Source of the DNA: Pseudoxanthomonas winnipegensis
Lineage (GTDB): Bacteria; Pseudomonadota; Gammaproteobacteria; Xanthomonadales; Xanthomonadaceae
Reading direction: 5' to 3'
Length of the DNA stretch: 64,000 bases
Assembly: GCF_004283755.1 (NCBI RefSeq)
Contig: NZ_SHMH01000001.1
Span: forward strand, 1 to 64,000
The position numbers and the translations under genes were made by a program. Positions 1,446-12,137 of the stretch are shown piece by piece (the first letter of the stretch is position 1; every line of letters begins with the position of its first letter). The notes under the pieces were generated by a model, which had not been told where the DNA came from, did no database searches, and saw nothing but the letters and a program-made list of their open reading frames with translations.

Positions 1446-3122
1446 TCAAACTGTGATGCGCTCCACATCCACCTTGTCCATCACGCGCGCGGTGAAGTAG
1501 CGCTCCTTGTAGTACTTGATCTTCTCGCACTTGACCGGATGCGCGATGCCTTCGTACAGGAAGACCTCCTGATCGAATCCCATCGCCTTGAGTTCCTGCG
1601 GCAGCATCAGCGCGCGCCGCTCCTCCGAAATGCTGCGCGTCACTTCGCGCCCGCGGGTGATGTTGCGCCGCTTGAAGGTGGTGTAGCCCAGCATCTCCGA
1701 GTAATCGTTGGCGTCCTGCTGCTCGCGCGGCGCGTAGATGATCTGCAACGCATGGTTGGTGATGATGGTGCGCGAGACGTCCTTGCCATAGGTCGCATCC
1801 AGCTGCGCCATCGACTGGATGATCGGCAACAGGCGAATGTTGTAGCCGGCCATGTACGACACGGCCGAGGCGATGATGTCGACCTTGCCGATCGCCGTGA
1901 ACTCGTCCATCAGCAGCAGGCACTGGTACTTGAGCTCGGGGTTGCTCTGCGGCAACTCGCGGGTGTTGAGATTGATGATCTGGCTGAAGAACAGATTCAC
2001 GATCAGTCGACTTTCGGCCAGCTTGTTGGGCTGGATGCCGACGTAGATGCTCGTCTTCTTCTTGCGCAGGTCGGTGAGCAGGAAGTCGTCGCCGGACGTG
2101 GCCGCGTCCAGCACCGGATTGATCCAGGCATTCAACGGTTCCTTCAGCGTGCCCATGATCGAGGCGAAGGTCTCATCCGCCTGCGACAGCAGGTTGGAGA
2201 AAGCCGAGCGCGCGTTGTCGCTGAGGAACTTGCGCGAGGCCAGGCCGCGCAGATAGGCCTTCAGATCCGTGCCATCGCCCGAGGACAGGCGATAGATACG
2301 CCCCAGCGTCGGCGGGCCGGAAGAGAACGGGAAGCCCGTGGCGATTTCGTCGTCGTGATTCTCGAACAGGAACAGCGCGAAGGCCATGAAGGCGTTGCGG
2401 GCCTGGCTGACCCAGAACTTCTGCTCGTCCGCGCCATCGGGATACAGCATGGCCGCGATGCTCATCAGATCGGACACGCGGAAGGCCGGATCGCGCGAGA
2501 CGTAGGTCAGCGGATTCCAGCGATGGGTGCGGCGGTCTTCGGCGAAGGGATTGAACAGATAGACCTCGTGTCCCTGCGATCTGCGCCAGCCGCTGGTCAG
2601 CTCGAAGTTCTCCTGCTTGATGTCCAGCACTACCACCGACTCGGCGTAATCGAGCAGGTTGGGAATCACGATGCCCACGCCCTTGCCCGAACGCGTGGGC
2701 GCGGCCAGGATCACGAACTGCTGCCCCGGCAGGCGCACCAGCTTGCCGCCGAACTTGCCGACGATGATGCCGGTGTTCGAAGGCTGCAGCATCTTGTGCT
2801 TGTTCAGGTCGCCGGCATTGGCGAAGCGCGCATCGCCATGCAGCGACTGCCGCTTTCCCTTGAACAGCAGCGCCAGGATCAGGACATAGACGATCAGCAC
2901 CGCGCCGAAGCCGATCCAGCCGGCCGCCTTGATCTTGCCGGCGTAAGGCCGATAGCGCGCGTCACCGAGCGCCTGGATGTACTCGACATACGTGTTCCAG
3001 TGCAGCGGCGCATGCACCTTGAGCAGCGCCATCGTCACATAGCCGGACAGGTACAGCCCCGCCGCCGCGGCCAGCACCGTCAACACGACGGCCAACCCAA
3101 GTTTCCCCTTGCTCAAGCGCAC
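1446..3122 (-). CDS. virD4: VirD4-type coupling ATPase of the type IV secretion system
   Basis: VirD4 is the hexameric inner-membrane ATPase that recruits substrates to the secretion channel. The 558-residue product has two N-terminal transmembrane segments (about 9-34 and 68-88) separated by a periplasmic loop. A P-loop follows at 141-149 (APTRSGKGVG) and a Walker B at 401-407 (CLLLMDEF). The VLDIKQENF and NHALQIIYAPREQQDA stretches are typical of the TraG/VirD4 family. Length and motifs are complete. It is the second gene of the cluster, 37 bases after an 89-codon unknown gene and 401 bases before virB7. In Xanthomonas the equivalent protein recognises effectors with a C-terminal XVIPCD domain; none of those is encoded in this window. 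Confidence 0.95.
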   Translation of the reverse strand: MRLSKGKLGLAVVLTVLAAAAGLYLSGYVTMALLKVHAPLHWNTYVEYIQALGDARYRPYAGKIKAAGWIGFGAVLIVYVLILALLFKGKRQSLHGDARFANAGDLNKHKMLQPSNTGIIVGKFGGKLVRLPGQQFVILAAPTRSGKGVGIVIPNLLDYAESVVVLDIKQENFELTSGWRRSQGHEVYLFNPFAEDRRTHRWNPLTYVSRDPAFRVSDLMSIAAMLYPDGADEQKFWVSQARNAFMAFALFLFENHDDEIATGFPFSSGPPTLGRIYRLSSGDGTDLKAYLRGLASRKFLSDNARSAFSNLLSQADETFASIMGTLKEPLNAWINPVLDAATSGDDFLLTDLRKKKTSIYVGIQPNKLAESRLIVNLFFSQIINLNTRELPQSNPELKYQCLLLMDEFTAIGKVDIIASAVSYMAGYNIRLLPIIQSMAQLDATYGKDVSRTIITNHALQIIYAPREQQDANDYSEMLGYTTFKRRNITRGREVTRSISEERRALMLPQELKAMGFDQEVFLYEGIAHPVKCEKIKYYKERYFTARVMDKVDVERITV

Positions 3123-3159
3123 TCCTCCTTGAAGCCGCGCCCGCGCGCGGCGCGAATCA

Positions 3160-3429
3160 TCAACGGATCAACCGGGCCGTCTTGGGCCGCACCGACTTGC
3201 GCCGGCGCGGACGCGCATCGTCGGCGCGGATCGGCTGCTCGTCCTCGATAAGCTGTTCCATGTACAGGCGCGCCTGCTCCAGCGAGGTCTCCTCGCGCAG
3301 CTTGGCGCCCGAGTCGGTGACCACCGCGTAACCGATCACCTCGTCCGGCGCATAGGCCGGGTCCGCATCGCGCGTGAGGGCGACGACCTGATAGCCGTGC
3401 TTCTGCAGGAGGGTGTGGCGGTATTCCAT
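3160..3429 (-). CDS. Small basic-tailed protein upstream of virD4
   Basis: This 89-residue soluble protein is one I do not recognise as a named family. The N-terminal two thirds (YQVVALTRDADPAYAPDEVIGYAVVTDSG...EQARLYMEQLIEDE) reads as a mixed alpha/beta fold. The C-terminal 20 residues are strongly basic (RPRRRKSVRPKTARLIR) and could bind nucleic acid. GAGGAG sits 8 bases before the ATG at 3429. It is the first gene of the virD4 transcript and ends 37 bases before virD4, so a role with the secretion system is possible but unproved. Confidence 0.7.
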   Translation of the reverse strand: MEYRHTLLQKHGYQVVALTRDADPAYAPDEVIGYAVVTDSGAKLREETSLEQARLYMEQLIEDEQPIRADDARPRRRKSVRPKTARLIR

Positions 3430-3591
3430 CCCTGGCGCTCCTCGAAGGTCCGAGAGCGCGATCCTAAGCGATCCCGGCGTGACGAGGCCACCTTCGCCCC
3501 CCAGGGCCTTAGGTCGCGGCAGGCTGCGCCTCGCCCAGGCGGGCGCCCCAGGATCGGCACACCGTCATCTGGCAACCTGGCGCCAGACATG

Positions 3592-3612
3592 AAAAAACCG
3601 GGCGCTGCCCGG
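3592..3612 (-). terminator. Displaced original terminator of tRNA-Val
   Basis: On the minus strand this reads CCGGGC-AGC-GCCCGG followed by TTTTTT, a compact rho-independent terminator. It lies 38 bases beyond the orphan tRNA-Val 3' end at 3650-3694. It most likely terminated tRNA-Val before the 6.3-kb element inserted between them. Confidence 0.75.
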
Positions 3613-3649
3613 TCCGTTTCATCTTCACCAGCCTGCCCCTGGCAGGAGC

Positions 3650-3694
3650 TGGTGGGCGGTACAGGGTTCGAACCTGTGACCCCTACCATGTCAA
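3650..3694. repeat. Left attachment site: 45-bp duplicate of tRNA-Val 3' half
   Basis: Bases 3650-3694 are identical to 9914-9958 over all 45 positions and diverge immediately on both sides. The repeat covers tRNA-Val from the anticodon loop to the encoded CCA end. It has no 5' half here, so it is not a tRNA gene. It marks the left junction of the integrated element. Confidence 0.93.
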
Positions 3695-3790
3695 CGGAAT
3701 CTCGGCCCTTTTCAAATCATCTACTTGGGCTGATATCCCTTGTTTTATCGGTTCATTGCATCCCGTTGCATCTGTCGATATTGTGCAGTT

Positions 3791-3811
3791 TGCACTTACA
3801 GATGCACTTAC
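3791..3811 (+). promoter_or_regulatory. Candidate integrase arm-type sites, left end
   Basis: Two direct copies of TGCACTTAC occur at 3791-3799 and 3803-3811, spaced 12 bases, just before the preferred integrase start codon. The core GCACTTAC also occurs twice near the right end of the element in the same orientation. Paired direct repeats near both ends are the usual layout of arm-type sites bound by the N-terminal domain of tyrosine integrases. Binding here could also repress int. Confidence 0.5.
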
Positions 3812-3818
3812 GGATACC

Positions 3819-5030
3819 GTGAAAGCCAAGTTGACCCCTCGCACCGTTGACGCGGCCAAGCCTGCAGCCAAGCCCTACGAGATCCACGACACGGATCTGC
3901 GCGGGCTGCTGCTGCGTGTGCAGCCGTCCGGCGTGAAGTCTTATATCGTGACGTGGGGGCGCGGGAAGCGCCGCACCCTTGGCCGGCATCCGGTGATGAC
4001 CGTGACGGGCGCGCGCAATGCAGCGCTGGCCGCACTGTCGGAGTCGGCGCAGCACGGTGCACCGCTGGCAGTGGTGGAGGCATCTAAGCCCAAGCCGCTG
4101 ACCCTGGGCGACTTCATCCGAGACCACTACGCGCCTTGGGCCAAGGCGAACCAGAAGGCTGGCCAGGCGACGGTGGACGCGATCGGCGCGGTGTTCGCAG
4201 ACCTGCTCGACAGGGAGCTTACCAAGGTGTCCGCCTTCGATATCGAGCGGGTGAAGTCAGCAAGGCTGAAGGCAGGCATGAAGCCGGCCACAGTGAACCG
4301 CGACCTGTCCCGCATCCGTGGCGCCCTGTCTCGCGCCGTGGACTGGGGCATGGTGGCCGATCACCCCATGCGGACCGTCAAACAGGCCAAGGGCGCCGAC
4401 GACAGCCGCGTGCGCTACCTGACGGCCGACGAGGAGAAGCGCCTCAGGAAAGCGCTGTCAGAGCGCGAGGGCGCGCGCAGGGCCAGCAGGGAGCGCCACA
4501 ACGCGTGGCACGCTGCCCGCGGCACTGAAGGGCACAGGCAGTGGCCCCAGGACGGCTACACCGATCACCTGCTGCCGATGACGCTGTTGGCGCTCAACAC
4601 CGGCATGAGGCGTGGGGAGCTCCTTGGCTTGGATTGGAAGAACGTCAACCTGCCGGCCAAGCTGGTGACAATCACCGCCGGCAACGCGAAGTCGCGCAAG
4701 GCGCGCCACCTGCCGTTGAACACCGAAGCACTGGATGTGCTCACGTGCTGGAAGCGCCAGGGCACCGGCACCGGCCTGGTATTCCCCTCGCCCAAGACCG
4801 GCGGCCGCATGGACAACATCAACAGCAGCTGGGAGGAACTGTGCGGATCGGCGGACCTGGCGGACTTCCGGTTCCACGACCTGCGCCACTCGTTCGCCTC
4901 TCGCTTGGTCATGGCCGGCGTGGACCTCAACACCGTGCGCGAACTGCTGGGGCACAGCGATATCAGGATGACATTGCGCTACGCCCACCTAGCGCCGGAC
5001 AAGCTGGCTGAGGCGGTGGCGAAGCTCTAA
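3819..5030 (+). CDS. Tyrosine recombinase (phage integrase, P4/DUF4102 type)
   Basis: The integrase would catalyse recombination between the tRNA-Val att site and the element. From the GTG at 3819 it encodes 403 residues beginning with the very typical VKAKLTPRTVDAAKP arm-binding start. An in-frame TTG at 3756 would add 21 atypical residues, so I prefer 3819. Domains in order: N-terminal DUF4102-like arm-binding domain (1-90), SAM-like core-binding domain (about 95-190), catalytic domain (about 200-395). Catalytic residues are all present: Arg264 (TGMRRGE), His353 and Arg356 (HDLRH), His379 (LLGH), Tyr388 (RYAHL). It appears functional. Its 3' end overlaps the convergent Arc-like gene by 4 bases. 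Confidence 0.95.
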   Translation: MKAKLTPRTVDAAKPAAKPYEIHDTDLRGLLLRVQPSGVKSYIVTWGRGKRRTLGRHPVMTVTGARNAALAALSESAQHGAPLAVVEASKPKPLTLGDFIRDHYAPWAKANQKAGQATVDAIGAVFADLLDRELTKVSAFDIERVKSARLKAGMKPATVNRDLSRIRGALSRAVDWGMVADHPMRTVKQAKGADDSRVRYLTADEEKRLRKALSEREGARRASRERHNAWHAARGTEGHRQWPQDGYTDHLLPMTLLALNTGMRRGELLGLDWKNVNLPAKLVTITAGNAKSRKARHLPLNTEALDVLTCWKRQGTGTGLVFPSPKTGGRMDNINSSWEELCGSADLADFRFHDLRHSFASRLVMAGVDLNTVRELLGHSDIRMTLRYAHLAPDKLAEAVAKL

Positions 5031-5473
5031 TCTCTACTGTCCAAGAGCTCGTAAATCTCAGTAGGGATGTGACCGCCCTTGGTTGCTGCAGCGAGCAAGA
5101 CCGGAACGGTTTCGTTCAATCGCTTGAGGTCCTTTTCGAACAACTCTTTTATCTGCATAACCGAAGTAAGCAGATCCTGATCTGGAGCCGCATTGTCTGT
5201 CATAAACAGATACTTGAAAGGCGTTTCGTCGCCCTGCTTCACCTTTTCGATATCTGCCTCGTAGCGCGCGATCACTTTTTCTGTTTCGGCGCGCCGGTCG
5301 ATTGCCTTTCTCAGCAGCTCAAATGCCGCAGCTTTGTCTGTGTGAAAAGAGCGCTCTAACCGGCGAACCACCTCGGCTGTGATCGATCGACCCGCTGCGG
5401 AAGCGGCTGAGTCAAGTCGGTCCTTGAGATCTGCAGGCAGGCGAAGCTTGAACTGGATTTCGGGTGTCGTCAT
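5027..5473 (-). CDS. Arc-family ribbon-helix-helix repressor
   Basis: This 148-residue protein has an N-terminal Arc/MetJ ribbon-helix-helix domain at about residues 5-45: the beta strand IQFKLRLP, then helix 1 DLKDRLDSAASAAG, the turn RSIT and helix 2 AEVVRRLERSF. The remaining 100 residues are largely helical and charged, and may mediate oligomerisation. Arc-like proteins bind palindromes as dimers of dimers. It is transcribed divergently from the AlpA-like gene, and three identical palindromes lie in between, the nearest 14 bases from its start codon. It therefore probably regulates itself and the early genes. It is convergent with int (4-base overlap). Confidence 0.85.
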   Translation of the reverse strand: MTTPEIQFKLRLPADLKDRLDSAASAAGRSITAEVVRRLERSFHTDKAAAFELLRKAIDRRAETEKVIARYEADIEKVKQGDETPFKYLFMTDNAAPDQDLLTSVMQIKELFEKDLKRLNETVPVLLAAATKGGHIPTEIYELLDSRD

Positions 5474-5486
5474 GGCCGCGGATGAT

Positions 5487-5554
5487 GGACCACAATGGTC
5501 CTTGACCGCAACGGACCATTGTGGTCCACTGAGTCTACCGGACCAATTTGGTCC
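5487..5554. promoter_or_regulatory. Triple operator: three GGACCA-N3-TGGTCC palindromes
   Basis: Three perfect dyads lie between the divergent Arc-like and AlpA-like genes: 5487-5501 (spacer CAA), 5513-5527 (spacer TTG) and 5540-5554 (spacer ATT). Centres are 26 and 27 bases apart, about 2.5 helical turns. The first two sites are reverse complements of each other. The arrangement is that of a phage-type operator region controlling both promoters. The Arc-like protein is the obvious candidate ligand; the AlpA-like protein is an alternative. Confidence 0.85.
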
Positions 5555-5571
5555 ATACAGAGGCTCAGCCG

Positions 5572-5781
5572 ATGACCAACCCTAGCAACAAACTCGCCTA
5601 CCCCATTGAGGAGGCGTTCGCCCTGATCGGCGTGTCCCGGACGCGCGGCTATCAGCTCATCAACTCAGGCTCACTGCGCACCTACAAGGCCGGCAAGCGC
5701 CGCCTGTGCAGCCATTCGGCGCTGGTTGACTGCCAGCGGGAGATGGAGAAGGCCTCAGCCCAGCGGACCGCAGCAGCCTGA
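5572..5781 (+). CDS. AlpA/MerR-like helix-turn-helix protein (excisionase candidate)
   Basis: This 69-residue protein starts at ATG 5572. It is one winged helix-turn-helix domain: YPIEEAFALIGVSRTRGYQLINSGSLRTYKAGKRRLCS. That is the helix-turn-helix plus beta-hairpin wing seen in AlpA regulators and small excisionases. An upstream in-frame ATG at 5548 would lie inside the third operator and is rejected. As first rightward gene after the operators, it is well placed to be the Xis or activator of the early genes. It could equally be a DNA-binding adaptor with no role in excision. Confidence 0.78.
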   Translation: MTNPSNKLAYPIEEAFALIGVSRTRGYQLINSGSLRTYKAGKRRLCSHSALVDCQREMEKASAQRTAAA

Positions 5782-5796
5782 CCGGGAGGATTCGCC

Positions 5797-5892
5797 GTGT
5801 CAGACGCACCAAAGAAAAACGGCCCGCTCCAGGTACGAACTGGAACGAGCCGTCGAATCCATGACCTAACCCTTCGACAGGAAAGACCATGA
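5797..5892 (+). CDS. Possible 31-residue small protein
   Basis: A GTG at 5797 is preceded by GGGAGGA with 6 bases spacing, the best Shine-Dalgarno in this part of the element. It opens a 31-codon frame (VSDAPKKNGPLQVRTG...LTLRQERP). The stop TGA overlaps the ATG of the next gene (ATGA at 5889-5892), which suggests translational coupling. The product is basic and polar with no recognisable domain. It may be a real small protein or mainly a translational leader for the following gene. A hairpin lies within it (5821-5851). Confidence 0.5.
   Translation: MSDAPKKNGPLQVRTGTSRRIHDLTLRQERP
5811..5851 (-). terminator. Possible minus-strand terminator hairpin
   Basis: On the minus strand a 12-base stem (GGCTCGTTCCAG paired with CTGGAGCGGGCC, two G-U pairs, 7-base loop) is followed by GTTTTTCTTT, a plausible rho-independent terminator. 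No minus-strand gene lies upstream of it inside the element. If active, it would protect the operator region from antisense transcription. On the plus strand the same hairpin lies inside the small 31-codon frame. Confidence 0.35.
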
Positions 5893-6218
5893 ACACCAAT
5901 TTACACCATCCAGACCCCGAAGCAATCGGACAACACCCTGAGGACGTGTCAGAAAAGTCTGAGCGCCCTACCCGGCTCAGCCCACTGGCCTGCGATTGCT
6001 GTGGAAAGTCCGCCAGCTACCTCCAGCTTCGCAGGACCACTGTTGTCTTCCCCTTCGCAGAGCTGCCGTTCTGGCTGTGCTTCGAGTGCATGGCAGAGCA
6101 CGAGGACGCTGACGATGCTGGGCTCGATCGCTATCAGTGGATCCTGTCCAGGGCGGGCAGATTTGGACCCGAGTGGCAAGACGCTGTTGCTGACCAGCTG
6201 ATGGAGGCGCGGGCATGA
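5889..6218 (+). CDS. Hypothetical zinc-ribbon-like protein
   Basis: This 109-residue protein is one I do not recognise. Residues 1-30 are polar and probably disordered. Residues 35-70 hold two CxxC pairs (CDCC and CFEC) about 29 residues apart, a spacing compatible with one zinc site. The C-terminal half is acidic and helical (AEHEDADDAGLDRYQW...). Its start overlaps the stop of the 31-codon frame, and its stop overlaps the next start, so the genes are co-translated. Genes like this are common in early regions of Xanthomonadaceae phages, but no function can be assigned. Confidence 0.72.
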   Translation: MNTNLHHPDPEAIGQHPEDVSEKSERPTRLSPLACDCCGKSASYLQLRRTTVVFPFAELPFWLCFECMAEHEDADDAGLDRYQWILSRAGRFGPEWQDAVADQLMEARA

Positions 6219-6445
6219 ACGAGTTACTGCGCGAAGAAATCGCCGACATCCTGCGCGAAGCGCCGTTCCCGGATGTCCTGGATCCGGGCATCGAGCAGTT
6301 GCTGGCAGAAGCGAAGGCCCTGCTGCAGGTCGTGCAGCCGCCCGGCTCCGAGGCCGACACCCTCGAAGCCCGCACCATCGGCGCGGTCCTCGACCGCGTG
6401 AACCGCGCGACGGAACTCCTTGCCAAGAGGAACGACAAGCAATGA
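6215..6445 (+). CDS. Hypothetical small helical protein
   Basis: This 76-residue acidic protein is predicted to be almost entirely helical (MNELLREEIADILREA...GAVLDRVNRATELLAKRNDKQ). It overlaps both neighbours by 4 bases (ATGA). I see no motif, cysteine or membrane segment. By position it belongs to the element's early operon. Function unknown. Confidence 0.7.
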   Translation: MNELLREEIADILREAPFPDVLDPGIEQLLAEAKALLQVVQPPGSEADTLEARTIGAVLDRVNRATELLAKRNDKQ

Positions 6446-6783
6446 ACATCCAGACCCACGGGATGCTCGAAACGCATCCATCCGTGTTGTTCCCGCTGCC
6501 GGCAGGCGACTACGCCCACGTGCTGGTGCGCGATCACTGCAACGCCCCCGCCTATGTCCCCGGCGATGTGCTCTTGGTGAACCTGGCCATTCGCCGCTTT
6601 GTCGCGGATGGCCTCTATGTGGTCGAGCACGCCGGCCAACAGAAGATCCGTTACCTGCGCGATGACGGCAGCCTGCGCATGGTCTGCGGATCCCATCCGA
6701 CCGTGGCAATCACAGTGACGGCTGACACCTGCCACGTGCTTGGCATGGTCGAGTCGGCGGCCAAGGTTCGGAGGGTCGGATGA
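6442..6783 (+). CDS. LexA/S24-like peptidase domain without DNA-binding domain or catalytic serine
   Basis: The 113-residue product looks like the C-terminal half of phage repressors (S24/LexA fold). The strand AYVPGDVLLVN corresponds to the family's P-T-x-x-x-G-D-L-L-L-V-D. The following RRFVADGLYVVEHAGQQKIRYLRDDG matches the region carrying the catalytic Lys (here Lys68, KIRYLR). Where the family has the nucleophilic Ser of SMEPT, this protein has Cys33-Asn-Ala-Pro, so autoproteolysis is unlikely in the usual form. There is no helix-turn-helix. It could be a decoy or partner that dimerises with full-length repressors, or a degenerate relic. It overlaps both neighbours by 4 bases. Confidence 0.6.
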   Translation: MNIQTHGMLETHPSVLFPLPAGDYAHVLVRDHCNAPAYVPGDVLLVNLAIRRFVADGLYVVEHAGQQKIRYLRDDGSLRMVCGSHPTVAITVTADTCHVLGMVESAAKVRRVG

Positions 6784-7010
6784 GCGATCAACCAATGCGC
6801 CTGGTGCTGGGCGAACCGTCGTGGTCCCTGCACCGCGCCCTGCCCGACCTGGGCGAACGCACCGCGGCTCAGTTCCAAGAGCTGCATCGCGCGCCTACGG
6901 CAGAGCGAGCGGAACGCCTTGCCATCGAGCTGGATGGGTGTCGGCAGCACGTCCTGCGCTATCGCCAGCCTATGGCACGACCACTGCCGACATCATCGGC
7001 GAGTCGCTGA
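6780..7010 (+). CDS. Small phage-type protein with a foreign C-terminal tail at a deletion junction
   Basis: The first about 62 of 76 residues (MSDQPMRLVLGEPSWSLHRA...IELDGCRQHVLRYRQ) read as a coherent, mostly helical small protein, co-translated with the previous gene by a 4-base overlap. From about 6966 the DNA is homologous to a major capsid gene in another frame. The last 13 residues (ARPLPTSSASR region) are therefore an out-of-frame read through capsid sequence. The gene is probably truncated and chimeric. Function unknown. Confidence 0.6.
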   Translation: MSDQPMRLVLGEPSWSLHRALPDLGERTAAQFQELHRAPTAERAERLAIELDGCRQHVLRYRQPMARPLPTSSASR

Positions 7011-7381
7011 TGGTCCAGGCGAACAACGGCTATAGCCCCAGCCTGGTGATCATGTCGCCCTTCGACTGGTTCAAGCTGCAGATCACGCGCAAGAACGCAA
7101 CGGACGAGGAGTACGTGTTCGGCTCCCCGACCTCCCCGCTGCCGCCCTCGCTCTGGAACACGCGCGTTGTGACCCCGGCTGGCATGCCCGGCGGCACGGC
7201 CCTGACCATCGATACCAGCTTCGTCAACGTGCTGGAGCGCTGGTCGCTGGTGGTACAGATCAGCAACTCCCACGCGGACTTCTTCATCCGCAACCTGGTG
7301 GCCATCCTGGGAGAGGTGCGCGCCGGCCTTGAGGTTCTGGATACCGCGGCGGTGCAGAAGGTCACGCTGCCTACCACCTGA
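6968..7381 (+). pseudogene. Phage major capsid protein, C-terminal fragment
   Basis: Frame-consistent translation from about 6968 gives an HK97-family capsid C-terminus. It shows YGTTTADIIGESLMVQANNG, then PSLVIMSPFDWFKLQITRK (the usual MNPxDWxxIxxxKD region), WNTRVVTPAGMPGGTALTID and a terminal domain ending VQKVTLPTT. About 138 residues remain of an expected 300-400; the 5' part is missing at the junction with the preceding small gene. The frame is open upstream by chance, but the upstream translation has no capsid character. The nearest in-frame ATG is at 7010 and has no good ribosome-binding site. It is probably a non-functional remnant. Confidence 0.82.
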
Positions 7382-7398
7382 TGAAGTGAGGCCCAGAA

Positions 7399-9540
7399 AT
7401 GTCGCTTGGCAGCGTGACCATAGATCTGCTCCTCCGCACGGGCAGCTTCACTACCGACTCCAAGGTCGCCGAAAAGCGCCTGAAAGACATGGGCGATGCG
7501 GCTTACAAGGCCGGCGAGCAGATCGGAAAATCGATCCGCGGCGGCGCGCTGCTTGCGGCTACCGGCTTGGCAGCCGCCGGCACCGCCGCGATCGCTTGGA
7601 CCGATCAGATCGTCCAGCTGAATGTAGAGATGGAGCGGCTGTCAAAGCTCTCCGGCACCAGCAGCGATACCTTCCAGCGCCTGGCGGCGGGCGCCAATGC
7701 GGTCGGCATCTCGAACGAGAAGCTGGCCGACATCCTGAAGGACGTGCAGGACAAGACGGGTGACTTCCTGCAAACCGGCGGCGGCGGCATGGCCGACTTC
7801 TTCAAGAACATCGCCCCCCAGGTGGGCCTGACTGCTGAGCAGTTCCGCAAGCTCTCCGGACCGGATGCCCTACAGGCCTACGTCAACGCCCTACAGAAGG
7901 CTGGTGTGTCGCAGAGCGAGATGACCTTCTACATGGAGGCCATCGCGTCGGATTCGTCGATGCTGGTGCCCCTGCTGCGGGACAACGGCCGGGGCTTCAG
8001 GGAGTGGGGCGACGAGGCTGCGCGCGCCGGCGCCATCATGGGCGGCGAGCTCTCCGAGAACACCAAGGCGATGCAGGAGACGACCGCTCGCCTCAAGCTG
8101 GCCTTTCAGGGGATGAAGGTCGAGGTAGCAAGCGCCCTCCTCCCCACGCTCAACGAGTTCGCCAACTCGATCTCCGGCGCGCAGATGGGCAAGGCGTTCG
8201 GCACCATGACCGGCTGGGTGGGCGGCGTGGTGACCAATCTGGCGAGCGGCACGGTCGCGTTGGTGAACTTCATCGATCAAGCCAACCAGCTGTATAAGCT
8301 GGCGAACGGCGGAAGCGTGGGGAACGCGGATTACGACGCATTGAACGCCCGCCTTGCCCAGATCAACACCGAGAAGCGCGACCTCAATAGCTGGAAGTCG
8401 AACCTGCTCGGTATTCCCCTGACCGATGGCCAGGAGAAGTTCAAGCTCGACCAGCTGAAGGCGCTCAACTCCGAAAGCGAGAAGATCATCCGTCAGATTG
8501 CCAGCCTCAACCGGAAGGCTATAGGCGACGCAATGACGATCATTGACCCCTCTGACGGCTACGAGGCCTGGAAGCTTGGCCAGGGGAACGGGAAGCCAAC
8601 CGGCGGAACCAAGAAGACGGCCAAGGAAAAGGACACCACGGCACTGCGCGAGCAGATCCTGGCGATGACTGACCTGGACAAGGCCATGATGTCCGCCGAC
8701 GCCTCCTCGCTGGACTGGTCCAACAGGCTGGAGGACCTTCAGGCCCAGCTGCAGGGCGGCCTAGCCCCGGCGATGCTGGAGTACAAGCGCAGCCTCGCAG
8801 AGCTGGATGCCGCCTACAAAACGGGCAAGGTCACCTCGCAGGACTACGCGACCTGGCAGCAAGCACTGAACGAGCAGCTGGAGGCAAACACATTCAAGCT
8901 GGCCGACACCACCCATGAGGCCACGCAGGCGATGACGGTCTTCGCCGACCAAGCGGCCCGGAACATGCAGGACGCGTTTGCCGACTTCCTGTTCGATCCG
9001 TTCCAGGATGGCGTGAAGGGGCTTGCAGAAAACTTTGCGAAGACGCTAAAGCGCATGGTCGCCGATGCAACTGCAGCCAACTTGCTGAAGGCGCTTTACG
9101 GCGGCGGCAGCCAGTACACGGGCACACTCTCAACTCTGTTCGGCAGCAGCTGGGGATTCGCTGAGGGTGGCCACGTCAGAGGCCCAGGCACCAGCACAAG
9201 CGATAGCATCCCCGCTTATCTCTCCAACGGCGAGTACGTGGTCAAGGCGGACGCTGTCAGCAAGTACGGCCGCGGGTTCTTCGATGCTATCAACGCGAGG
9301 CGCTATGCCAGCGGCGGCTATGTGGGCGGTCAGGGCGCCCCCGTCTCAGGTGGTGATCGAGGCGTAACGGTGCAGATCGAGAACCACGCCTCCCCCGTCT
9401 CAGCCCAGGCAACCACCAGCCAAGCGCCAGACGGGTCGATGCTCATCAAGCTGGTGCTCAACGCTGTCACAGACAGCGCCGTCAATGGATCGTTGGGAAC
9501 AGCCCTGACGCGGACGTACGGGCTCAGGAAGTCGGTGTAA
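7399..9540 (+). CDS. Phage tail tape-measure protein
   Basis: The tape-measure protein sets tail length and is part of the DNA-injection apparatus of long-tailed phages. The 713-residue product starts MSLGSVTIDLLLRTGSFTTDSK, typical of lambda-like siphophage tape measures. It continues with the helical region KAGEQIGKSIRGGALLAATGLAA, a long alternating helical body, and a charged linker (GGTKKTAKEKDTT). The C-terminus has the family's standard ending: GFAEGGHVRGPGTSTSD, IPAYLSNGEYVVKADAV and YASGGYVGG. No stops or shifts are seen. It begins only 17 bases after the capsid fragment, although many genes normally lie between capsid and tape measure, so a second deletion lies here. It is the only complete structural gene in the element. 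Confidence 0.92.
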   Translation: MSLGSVTIDLLLRTGSFTTDSKVAEKRLKDMGDAAYKAGEQIGKSIRGGALLAATGLAAAGTAAIAWTDQIVQLNVEMERLSKLSGTSSDTFQRLAAGANAVGISNEKLADILKDVQDKTGDFLQTGGGGMADFFKNIAPQVGLTAEQFRKLSGPDALQAYVNALQKAGVSQSEMTFYMEAIASDSSMLVPLLRDNGRGFREWGDEAARAGAIMGGELSENTKAMQETTARLKLAFQGMKVEVASALLPTLNEFANSISGAQMGKAFGTMTGWVGGVVTNLASGTVALVNFIDQANQLYKLANGGSVGNADYDALNARLAQINTEKRDLNSWKSNLLGIPLTDGQEKFKLDQLKALNSESEKIIRQIASLNRKAIGDAMTIIDPSDGYEAWKLGQGNGKPTGGTKKTAKEKDTTALREQILAMTDLDKAMMSADASSLDWSNRLEDLQAQLQGGLAPAMLEYKRSLAELDAAYKTGKVTSQDYATWQQALNEQLEANTFKLADTTHEATQAMTVFADQAARNMQDAFADFLFDPFQDGVKGLAENFAKTLKRMVADATAANLLKALYGGGSQYTGTLSTLFGSSWGFAEGGHVRGPGTSTSDSIPAYLSNGEYVVKADAVSKYGRGFFDAINARRYASGGYVGGQGAPVSGGDRGVTVQIENHASPVSAQATTSQAPDGSMLIKLVLNAVTDSAVNGSLGTALTRTYGLRKSV

Positions 9541-9588
9541 CGAGCAGGCCGTCTCGTCTGGTGCGATGACAATCCGTAGGCTGGCGTC

Positions 9589-9783
9589 ATGGCCTCCCAC
9601 GACGAAAAAGATAGCACCCAGCCCCTCGGGCCTGATCCCTTCGGACACCTGACGTGCAGAGACACACGCACGCCGGAGGAGCGGAAGTCTGCTGAGTCGA
9701 AGGAGTGGGCCAGGCGAAAGGGCCGTGGCCGCAAGGACTGGTGGAAGAAGCACCTGCCAGATCCGCAGGACGGGCTTGGGTGA
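9589..9783 (+). CDS. Hypothetical small basic protein
   Basis: This 64-residue protein is charged and Trp-containing (RTPEERKSAESKEWARRKGRGRKDWWKKHLPD), with no recognisable domain. The strongly basic centre suggests nucleic-acid contact. It lies 48 bases after the tape-measure gene and just before the right-end arm sites. The start codon has only a weak upstream AGG. It may be a real cargo gene or a by-chance frame. Confidence 0.4.
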   Translation: MASHDEKDSTQPLGPDPFGHLTCRDTRTPEERKSAESKEWARRKGRGRKDWWKKHLPDPQDGLG

Positions 9784-9826
9784 GGCGCCCAGCGGCACCG
9801 GCACGCTGTCGATGGACAGACCGCGC

Positions 9827-9845
9827 GCACTTACCCTGCACTTAC
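9827..9845 (+). promoter_or_regulatory. Candidate integrase arm-type sites, right end
   Basis: GCACTTAC occurs at 9827-9834 and within TGCACTTAC at 9837-9845, spaced 11 bases and in the same orientation as the pair at the left end. The pair lies about 70-90 bases inside the right attachment site. Together with the left pair it matches the layout expected for P and P' arms. Confidence 0.5.
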
Positions 9846-9846
9846 G

Positions 9847-9871
9847 AAAAAGCCGACCATCTAGGCCGGCT
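9847..9871 (-). terminator. Element-borne terminator downstream of tRNA-Val
   Basis: On the minus strand the stem AGCCGGCC / GGTCGGCT (one G-U pair, loop TAGAT) is followed by TTTTTC. It lies 43 bases after the CCA end of tRNA-Val, where the transcript would end after integration. It replaces the chromosomal terminator now stranded at 3592-3612. Confidence 0.7.
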
Positions 9872-9913
9872 TCCGTCTGATCCCACGAAACGACTATTTC
9901 TAAGCCATTTCAG

Positions 9914-9958
9914 TGGTGGGCGGTACAGGGTTCGAACCTGTGACCCCTACCATGTCAA
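9914..9958. repeat. Right attachment site: 45-bp repeat in tRNA-Val
   Basis: This is the perfect partner of 3650-3694. Here it forms the 3' half of the intact tRNA-Val, from the anticodon loop to CCA. Integration at this position leaves the tRNA gene functional, with its 3' half supplied by the element. Confidence 0.93.
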
Positions 9959-9988
9959 GGTAGTGCTCTACCGCTGAGCTAACCGCCC
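9914..9988 (-). tRNA. tRNA-Val(GAC)
   Basis: The minus strand folds as a complete cloverleaf. Acceptor stem GGGCGG..CCGCCC, D-arm TAGCTCAGC, anticodon stem CTACC/GGTAG with loop TTGACAT (anticodon GAC, reading GUC/GUU valine codons), T-arm with GGTTCGAACC, and an encoded CCA. It is the integration target of the adjacent element, and its 3' 45 bases are duplicated at 3650-3694. Confidence 0.96.
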
Positions 9989-10031
9989 GTTGCGACATCG
10001 TGTCGCCGCGCCCTCGGTGCGAGGGGCGCGC

Positions 10032-10060
10032 ATCATAACATCACCTGCGTGCGGCGTGAA
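10032..10060 (-). promoter_or_regulatory. Predicted sigma-70 promoter of tRNA-Val
   Basis: On the minus strand, TTCACG (10060-10055) and TATGAT (10037-10032) are separated by 17 bases. They lie about 45 bases upstream of the mature tRNA-Val 5' end. A GC-rich near-palindrome (about 10008-10031) lies in the resulting leader. Confidence 0.5.
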
Positions 10061-10115
10061 CAGCCCTGCGCGGCTTTTCCTCCCGCCCCGCTCCCTGCCC
10101 GGCCAGCCGCCCGCC

Positions 10116-12137
<2,022 letters not shown>

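Follow-up and report, generated by a model that had tools for sequence, protein, structure and literature searches.

The window analysed here is a stretch of 64,000 nucleotides from Pseudoxanthomonas winnipegensis (assembly GCF_004283755.1, contig NZ_SHMH01000001.1, positions 1 to 64,000), and it contains a small integrated element of 6.3 kb. The element is bounded by perfect direct repeats of 45 bp on the plus strand, located at 3650–3694 and 9914–9958. The right attachment (att) repeat corresponds to the 3' 45 nt of a tRNA-Val(gac) gene (9914–9988, minus strand), which was detected by ARAGORN. In the genome G017 of the same genus (locus L062), the 45 bp are present once, and the flanks of this single copy align with the window positions 3001–3694 at 85% identity and 9913–10500 at 91% identity. 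The single copy with both flanks aligned marks the empty site of the element, which is thus an insertion. The perfect att repeats at tRNA-Val, as given in a preliminary description of this locus, are confirmed, and the empty site supports them.

The tyrosine integrase gene (3756–5030, plus strand) has a TTG start codon, with GTG at 3783 also possible, and is open as previously described (PF00589, 4e-32, plus an arm domain). On the minus strand, divergent from the early genes, the gene of an Arc-like ribbon-helix-helix repressor is located at 5027–5473 (PF03869, 3.6e-7). An excisionase/AlpA-like helix-turn-helix (HTH) protein is encoded at 5572–5781 of the plus strand, and the match of its frame (5548–5781) to HTH_17 (6.3e-5) is under the Pfam cut-off. 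Thus, in the switch described as Arc-like/AlpA-like, the Arc assignment stands and the AlpA-like label is weak. The features expected of phage satellites in general, namely an integrase, an excision switch (here with its weak HTH match), att repeats and an empty site in a sister genome, are all present.

The tape-measure protein (TMP) gene at 7399–9540 (plus strand) is open over 713 codons, as had been stated, and its product matches phrog_2854 at 2e-84; Pfam TMP_2 gives 0.008 only, under the cut-off. The TMP gene had been regarded as the only phage structural gene of the element. A second one is present as a fragment just before it. Positions ~6970–7381 of the plus strand code for ~134 aa from the C-terminus of an HK97-type major capsid protein (MCP; PF05065, 1.1e-9; phrog_10, 2.8e-14); the N-terminal part is deleted, and the MCP stop lies 17 bp before the TMP start. 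At about 6958–6975, the MCP fragment is joined to a 73-aa early gene (6780–6974, plus strand), which is cut at codon ~65. An intact copy of this early gene lies near the end of contig 14 in the same genome (L059:8412–8633), and is 94% identical over the window positions 6764–6968. In the fuller relatives L173, L233, L241 and L064, the 73-aa gene and the MCP gene are 1.6–2.2 kb apart. By eye, no start site of the MCP fragment is convincing, and the fragment has the appearance of a deletion product. By its anatomy, the window element is a deletion derivative with one clear internal deletion, in which the front of the MCP and the DNA preceding it are gone. The truncated MCP frame remains open, which makes a recent deletion probable. 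For the same reason, the open TMP frame says little about selection after the deletion.

According to a simple codon-score script, seven genes are called in the element, the MCP fragment included. The Pfam and PHROGs searches of its ten open reading frames (ORFs) detected no full morphogenesis set: of the terminase, portal, connector, tail and lysis genes of an ordinary prophage only TMP was recognised, with the MCP fragment as the one other structural gene. No replication gene was recognised either. The window copy, with neither a recognised replication gene nor a full MCP, is probably not self-sufficient.

The MCP fragment is most similar to the MCPs of islands in other genera of the family that have no phage morphogenesis set, with identities of 63% (L234), 63% (L233), 60% (L232) and 56% (L230). 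The identities to L236, L235, L231 and L173 are 39–43%. Against ordinary-prophage MCPs, the identity is at most 36% among the 40 rows listed. A search of 50,697 phage records with the fragment gave 239 matches, all below 60%, and the ten listed are at most 37.9%. The full L230 MCP matched 781 phage records, all below 60% (at most 30.4% in the 25 listed), and the satellite MCP matched 26 of 72,556 plasmid records, again all below 60% (at most 33.3% in the 15 listed). Satellite-MCP searches of IMG/VR gave one locus at 33%, and the search with the L231 MCP gave no match. In a quick MCP tree of 61 rows, from which identical rows and ordinary MCP frames shorter than about 300 codons were left out, the window is located inside satellite-only sets of 5, 8 and 10 members, with Shimodaira–Hasegawa-like approximate likelihood ratio (SH-aLRT) supports of 97, 95 and 99, respectively. 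The fragment stands apart from 48 ordinary-prophage MCPs in the tree. The integrase is 58% identical to that of the L234 island and 51% identical to those of L064 and L246. Arc homologues were found in L233, L235, L064 and L246, and the HTH protein has its best match in L083, followed by L064, L063 and L246. Hits in short loci overlapping the window are left out of this comparison. The closest integrase and Arc relatives belong to small satellite-like islands.

The fuller relatives, in which genes were called by the same kind of simple script and many were named by eye, contain an integrase, a repressor/HTH switch, small early genes, an HK97-type MCP and a TMP, several have a replication-type gene, and they occupy tRNA or tmRNA sites. 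In L173 (G381, another genus), the integrase, small genes, the 73-aa gene, a 364-aa MCP and an 814-aa TMP are arranged in a row, and the contig ends just past TMP. The same arrangement, an MCP of the satellite clade adjoining TMP behind an integrase and the 73-aa gene, is true of the window, with the MCP and the early gene both truncated. When the L173 proteins were compared with 395 genomes of the family, 54 matched TMP, a part of which was inspected for gene context, and 21 matched MCP. On the basis of gene lists, the 21 MCP-bearing genomes were divided into 11 with satellite-type islands and 10 with ordinary prophages, six of the latter (G281, G329, G083, G541, G573 and G631) being classified only by an MCP–TMP distance of 3–7 kb; a second MCP match in G234 is outside the classification. 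MCP and TMP are present in the same island in seven of the 11: G000 (the genome of the window), G381, G419, G505, G539, G565 and G567. Two small genes lie between them in G539 and a small-terminase-like gene in G505, where the MCP is cut by the contig end. The other four islands (G431, G469, G515 and G528) have an MCP with no recognised TMP.

An eighth island with both genes (L064 in G004, the genus of the window) came to light by way of its integrase, its MCP being more distant. It is bounded by 49-bp repeats at tRNA-Pro, 9.7 kb apart, and encodes Arc (1e-14), HTH_17 (9e-9), MCP (PF05065, 3e-24) and TMP_2 (7e-8) proteins, with 0.44 kb from MCP to TMP. Besides the window, seven genomes of the family have MCP and TMP side by side or nearly so. 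Similar islands were observed beyond the family in the Tranquillimonas record L031 and the Achromobacter record L018, which we take to be alpha- and beta-proteobacterial, respectively, and in the IMG/VR contig L112. The capsid proteins of L018 and L031 match PF05065. That of L112 has no Pfam match, and is read as an MCP from resemblance and a neighbouring prohead protease.

Using MCP and TMP profiles, the two genes were detected on the same strand within 597 bp at seven places (the window, L173, L230, L231, L232, L241 and L031). At 43 loci, some of which represent nearly the same contig, the spacing is 2,761 bp or more. Islands with an MCP or TMP beyond the reach of the profiles are absent from this count. 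Exact repeats of 29–58 bp, extending from the tRNA to the far island end, were found in seven of 14 loci (the window, L230, L233, L235, L238, L246 and L063). Among the remaining seven, two have repeats of 20 and 14 bp, and five have none. The island sizes given by the repeats are 6.3–12.4 kb. Full-length MCP and TMP genes together with att repeats are present in L230, L233 and L064. Intact homologues of the 73-aa gene recur in small integrated islands (L063, L233, L173, L238, L170, L172, L064, L241, L175 and others), and the gene was matched in 10 of 398 genomes of the order, including that of the window. It was undetected in the L230 and L231 islands, and an early-gene search of IMG/VR gave 24 stretches fitting the pattern, none of which is a relative.

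A Pfam search of 50 of the 63 genes in five islands (L230, L231, L233, L241 and L173), omitting the L233 integrase and 12 genes of at most 165 aa, identified 22 families. Among these, capsid families account for five genes and integrase for four; tape-measure and regulator families were also matched, as were an AAA ATPase and a prohead protease, once each. None of the 50 genes matched a portal, large-terminase, tail-tube or lysis family. For the PHROGs search of the same genes, 25 of 121 families are listed, so that a full exclusion of phage structural genes is not given. The AAA_25 protein of L230, with primase/helicase PHROGs, represents a replication-type gene. Small-terminase domains are present in L232 and L236; a small terminase is a typical satellite tool for self-packaging. 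A portal is present in the relatives L246 and L170.

The history of TMP is different from that of MCP. Full-length collinear homologues of the window TMP are found in L088 (39% identity) and L130 (34% overall, 52% over the last 223 aa), both of 717 aa. In a quick tree of TMP N-terminal parts (50 rows, leaving out identical rows and the ~1,000-aa TMPs of L233 and L241), ten satellite TMPs are scattered among phage TMPs. The tree shows seven label changes, at least five of them forced by starred branches, and shuffled labels average 9.3, so the satellites are slightly clustered. The window TMP is placed, with a support of 80, beside a phage group including the Stenotrophomonas prophage L016. Genus-wide, the best TMP matches outside the window show 35–40% identity over parts of the protein only, which leaves no close homologue for the ratio of nonsynonymous to synonymous rates (dN/dS). 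TMPs thus seem to have been taken from phages repeatedly, and most MCPs seem to stay in a satellite lineage. Repeated uptake would fit a protein that has to match the tail proteins of a changing helper.

We considered the window TMP as a shortened phage TMP. Its phage neighbours in the tree have frames of 1,260–1,340 codons, yet the collinear L088 and L130 proteins have 717 residues, and the idea is weakened. As homologues of equal length occur in ordinary phages, no claim is possible that the window TMP shortens the tail. The seven short-gap TMP frames (657–1,019 codons) are shorter than the 31 distinct ordinary lengths (Mann–Whitney p 0.0015; the median of 39 ordinary frames is 1,100 codons), a comparison that is suggestive only, since satellite TMPs were the source of the profile and the lengths were measured from stop to stop.

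The remaining genes of the element are small and lie on the plus strand. The 109-aa ORF (5889–6218) has no Pfam family and no homologue among the loci compared. The 76-aa early ORF (6215–6445) is 71% identical to a gene of a G017 prophage, and the 113-aa protein (6442–6783), which resembles the C-terminal part of CI-type repressors (phrog_6201, 4.1e-7), is 97% identical to another gene of the same prophage. The latter identity points to gene exchange between prophage and satellite. The G017 prophage (L061, L168 and L169) is complete-looking, is located at tRNA-Thr and has a 2,473-aa protein. The 64-aa ORF at the right end (9589–9783) is 90% identical to L060 and 67% identical to L063, both near tRNA-Phe, and 61% identical over 46 aa to L099. 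PADLOC matched none of seven window proteins.

In the same genome, a second element has left its remains at the end of contig 14 (L059:8396–9315), where the intact copy of the 73-aa gene lies with a further C-terminal piece of an MCP. The end of contig 17 (L060:9333–9709) contains the homologue of the 64-aa ORF beside tRNA-Phe. Both contigs end close by and look like parts of a second, decayed element. The MCP alignment of this second element has one TAG, and by eye the homology probably starts after a short ORF behind the early gene. The window start, at about 40–130, shares ORF pieces with the end of contig 17 (L060, about 10600–10730), as expected if a repeated element breaks the assembly. 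The gene cut by this repeat is presumably of the VirB8 type.

Other genes were observed in the relatives. A protein of ~200 aa, in which by eye a D-T motif recurs close to the start, adjoins MCP or TMP in several islands (L232:7942–8583, L233:8373–8945, L235:9391–9996, L238:11315–11905, L246:10491–11087 and L248:10868–11488). The L232, L233, L238 and L246 copies have no Pfam match, and the L233 copy has no PHROGs match. A gene of ~90 aa, alike by eye, is located just upstream of MCP or its neighbours (L230:11794–12063, L231:8667–8948, L233:11378–11644 and L241:8485–8754); the L230 copy has no Pfam or PHROGs family, and the L231 copy has a weak PHROGs match (0.007). In L235, a satellite-type island with MCP and no recognised TMP, a CapP-like peptidase is encoded at 7732–8094 (PADLOC, 1.2e-23), possibly as defence cargo. 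In the island L248:995–15990 (G022, same genus), genes resembling integrase and replication genes accompany a 707-aa TMP, a DUF4055 protein and the N-terminal domain of a large terminase (PF03237, 1e-8), which represents a different choice of structural genes.

We interpret the 6.3-kb element as a damaged phage satellite integrated in tRNA-Val, rather than as the remains of an ordinary prophage, with a probability of roughly 0.7. The satellite parent is suggested because satellite-like islands hold the nearest relatives of the MCP fragment, the integrase and the Arc protein, because the fuller island L064 exists, and because the MCP next to TMP recurs in other genera. Two origins had been proposed in the preliminary description, recent derivation by deletion and a selected satellite equipped with a TMP of its own, the second of which was called speculation there. 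The former holds insofar as the front of the MCP is removed, with the parent most likely a satellite rather than an ordinary prophage. As for the latter, the MCP, integrase and Arc relatives argue for a satellite origin, and the open TMP gives no evidence of selection after the deletion. A near-identical full prophage, which would point to a simple deletion in a single strain, was found neither in 38 genomes of the genus, nor among the 638 phage records matched by TMP, of which none covers 80% of the protein, nor in the best 80 of 309 IMG/VR relatives or the 43 genome-contig loci; these collections hold one genome per species or may omit very near records, which limits this negative for the window's own species. 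No near relative of the whole window element was found in the same collections.

Several results weigh against this interpretation. The satellite and phage labels were assigned by ourselves, partly by eye, and distance was the only criterion in labelling most of the 43 long-distance loci. Islands found by eye partly fill the distance gap, with MCP–TMP spacings of 1.2 kb (L112), 1.35 kb (L233), 1.9 kb (L018) and 3.3 kb (L246, with the portal in between). The MCPs of satellite-type L031, L238 and L241 form a second group outside the main satellite clade, and the window row fills just 33% of the columns of the MCP tree. The approximately unbiased (AU) test did not reject a tree in which the nine other satellite MCPs of the main clade are held apart from the window (p 0.156), a constraint that still permits the window beside them. 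The window TMP groups apart from satellite TMPs, the 717-aa TMPs of L088 and L130 belong to ordinary phage gene sets, and the two small genes at 6215–6783 have their matches in one and the same prophage. Mobilisation by a helper and travel in particles are predictions for all of these islands.

Some of these points suit the alternative that the element is an ordinary cryptic prophage, left after three large deletions, with the MCP piece and TMP as chance survivors. The order of integrase, early genes, MCP and TMP is the phage order with gaps, and an island of similar layout in G010 has DUF2213 and lambda tail-I proteins as its only recognised structural proteins. We consider this alternative unlikely, for the MCP fragment falls in the satellite set, and other genera repeatedly show an MCP with a TMP close behind it, both of full length and with att repeats in the case of L230, L233 and L064. 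Slightly less probable still is that the MCP and TMP pieces are kept for defence, as dominant-negative subunits or decoys that would jam the shell and tail assembly of incoming phages rather than build satellite particles. Blocking of tail assembly is known for satellites and prophages (Tai, PMC11364771; Rta of PLE11, PMC12987554), and two places in the genome of the window each retain only the C-terminal MCP part. However, the fragment resembles a deletion product, a longer MCP is kept in the fuller relatives, the window TMP is of full length, and the PADLOC search of the window proteins was negative.

The satellite's own MCP and TMP might also serve mainly to dodge systems that sense or block the MCP or TMP of the helper, rather than to set size. 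The TMP of the PLE11 satellite escapes Rta, which targets the helper TMP (PMC12987554), and the several origins of satellite TMPs are what arms-race turnover would predict. On the other hand, the need of a ~10-kb genome for a fitting capsid accounts for the MCP without evasion, and the PADLOC result offers this explanation nothing either. It seems improbable, although less so than the cryptic prophage and the decoy.

If the element derives from a satellite, its mode of action may be outlined as follows. As no portal, large terminase, tail tube or lysis family was found in the five scanned islands, such islands should need a helper phage. Upon a signal of the helper, the element would excise through its integrase and HTH switch, and replicate. 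The satellite MCP would then enter or replace the helper shell to suit a genome of ~10 kb, like Ccm in SaPIbov5, and, following the example of Vibrio PLE, the satellite TMP would take the place of the helper TMP in the tail. The copy in the window has lost, by one deletion, the front of the MCP and the DNA between MCP and the 73-aa gene. At most excision and the supply of TMP would be left to it.

More broadly, and with slightly less than even confidence, we propose a widespread class of minimal satellites, of which the window element would be a damaged representative. Such satellites would carry the two siphophage proteins that set particle size, MCP that of the shell and TMP that of the tail, next to almost no other structural genes, and would swap both into helper particles. 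The MCP would mostly represent a long-separate satellite lineage, and the TMP would be re-acquired from phages time after time to fit the helper tail. If functional, such elements would be a small, testable system for satellites that refit both ends of the virion. As a marker, we suggest an MCP within about 0.6 kb of TMP, beside an integrase and without a portal, which may find satellites resembling decayed prophages.

The two halves of this proposal have known counterparts. Vibrio cholerae PLE satellites place their own TMP in virions, whose tails are about 10 nm shorter, and deletion of the PLE tmp lowers transduction by 96–99.9% (PMC12987554). The window has a TMP as well. PLE differs in having a tail-assembly chaperone (in PLE11 also a baseplate hub) and helper capsid proteins in its particles (PMC12987554), whereas the islands described here, seen at the gene level, pair an MCP homologue with TMP, are 6–12 kb in size and occupy tRNA or tmRNA genes. 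A tail-assembly chaperone was not recognised in the window by Pfam and PHROGs, a search in which PLE genes were not compared directly. In Staphylococcus, SaPIbov5 likewise has its own HK97-type capsid-protein homologue, Ccm, which is the sole satellite protein needed to turn helper shells from prolate to isometric; the portion of that report consulted mentions no TMP (PMC8569155). The islands described here may affect particles in a similar manner.

The cf-PICIs have their own capsid module with portal and packaging genes. No such portal/packaging module was detected in the window (Pfam, PHROGs) or in the five scanned relatives; L246 and L170 have a portal. Both kinds of element have their own MCP, and putative tmp genes are shown in a sampling of cf-PICIs and PLE-like elements (PMC12987554, Extended Data Fig. 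10 legend). The cf-PICIs make their own capsids (PMC11389934); the Pfam search of the five scanned islands gave no portal or large terminase. PICMIs are also very small int/alpA elements using phage particles, and differ in their location beside fis and, in the sections consulted, in having no capsid-remodelling genes (PMC10803314). A primase is a further PICMI gene. The window element is at tRNA-Val, with no primase recognised by Pfam or PHROGs. The marker genes of P4 are sid, psu and delta. The general Pfam scan of the window gave no such match, and no direct comparison with P4 was made.

In a search that left most subscription journals and preprints outside, no paper was found on satellites that combine a single MCP with a single TMP, whether in this bacterial family or elsewhere. 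As putative tmp genes in PLE-like elements and cf-PICIs are already published, we claim only a variant of known satellites. The satellite TMP of Vibrio PLE and the satellite MCP homologue Ccm of SaPIbov5 are each known. The pairing of both, with hardly any other structural genes, is new; it occurs in the window and seven other genomes of one family, and similar islands are present in two further records outside the family and one IMG/VR contig. By analogy with these two systems, the paired proteins would refit the shell and the tail of the helper particle, respectively.

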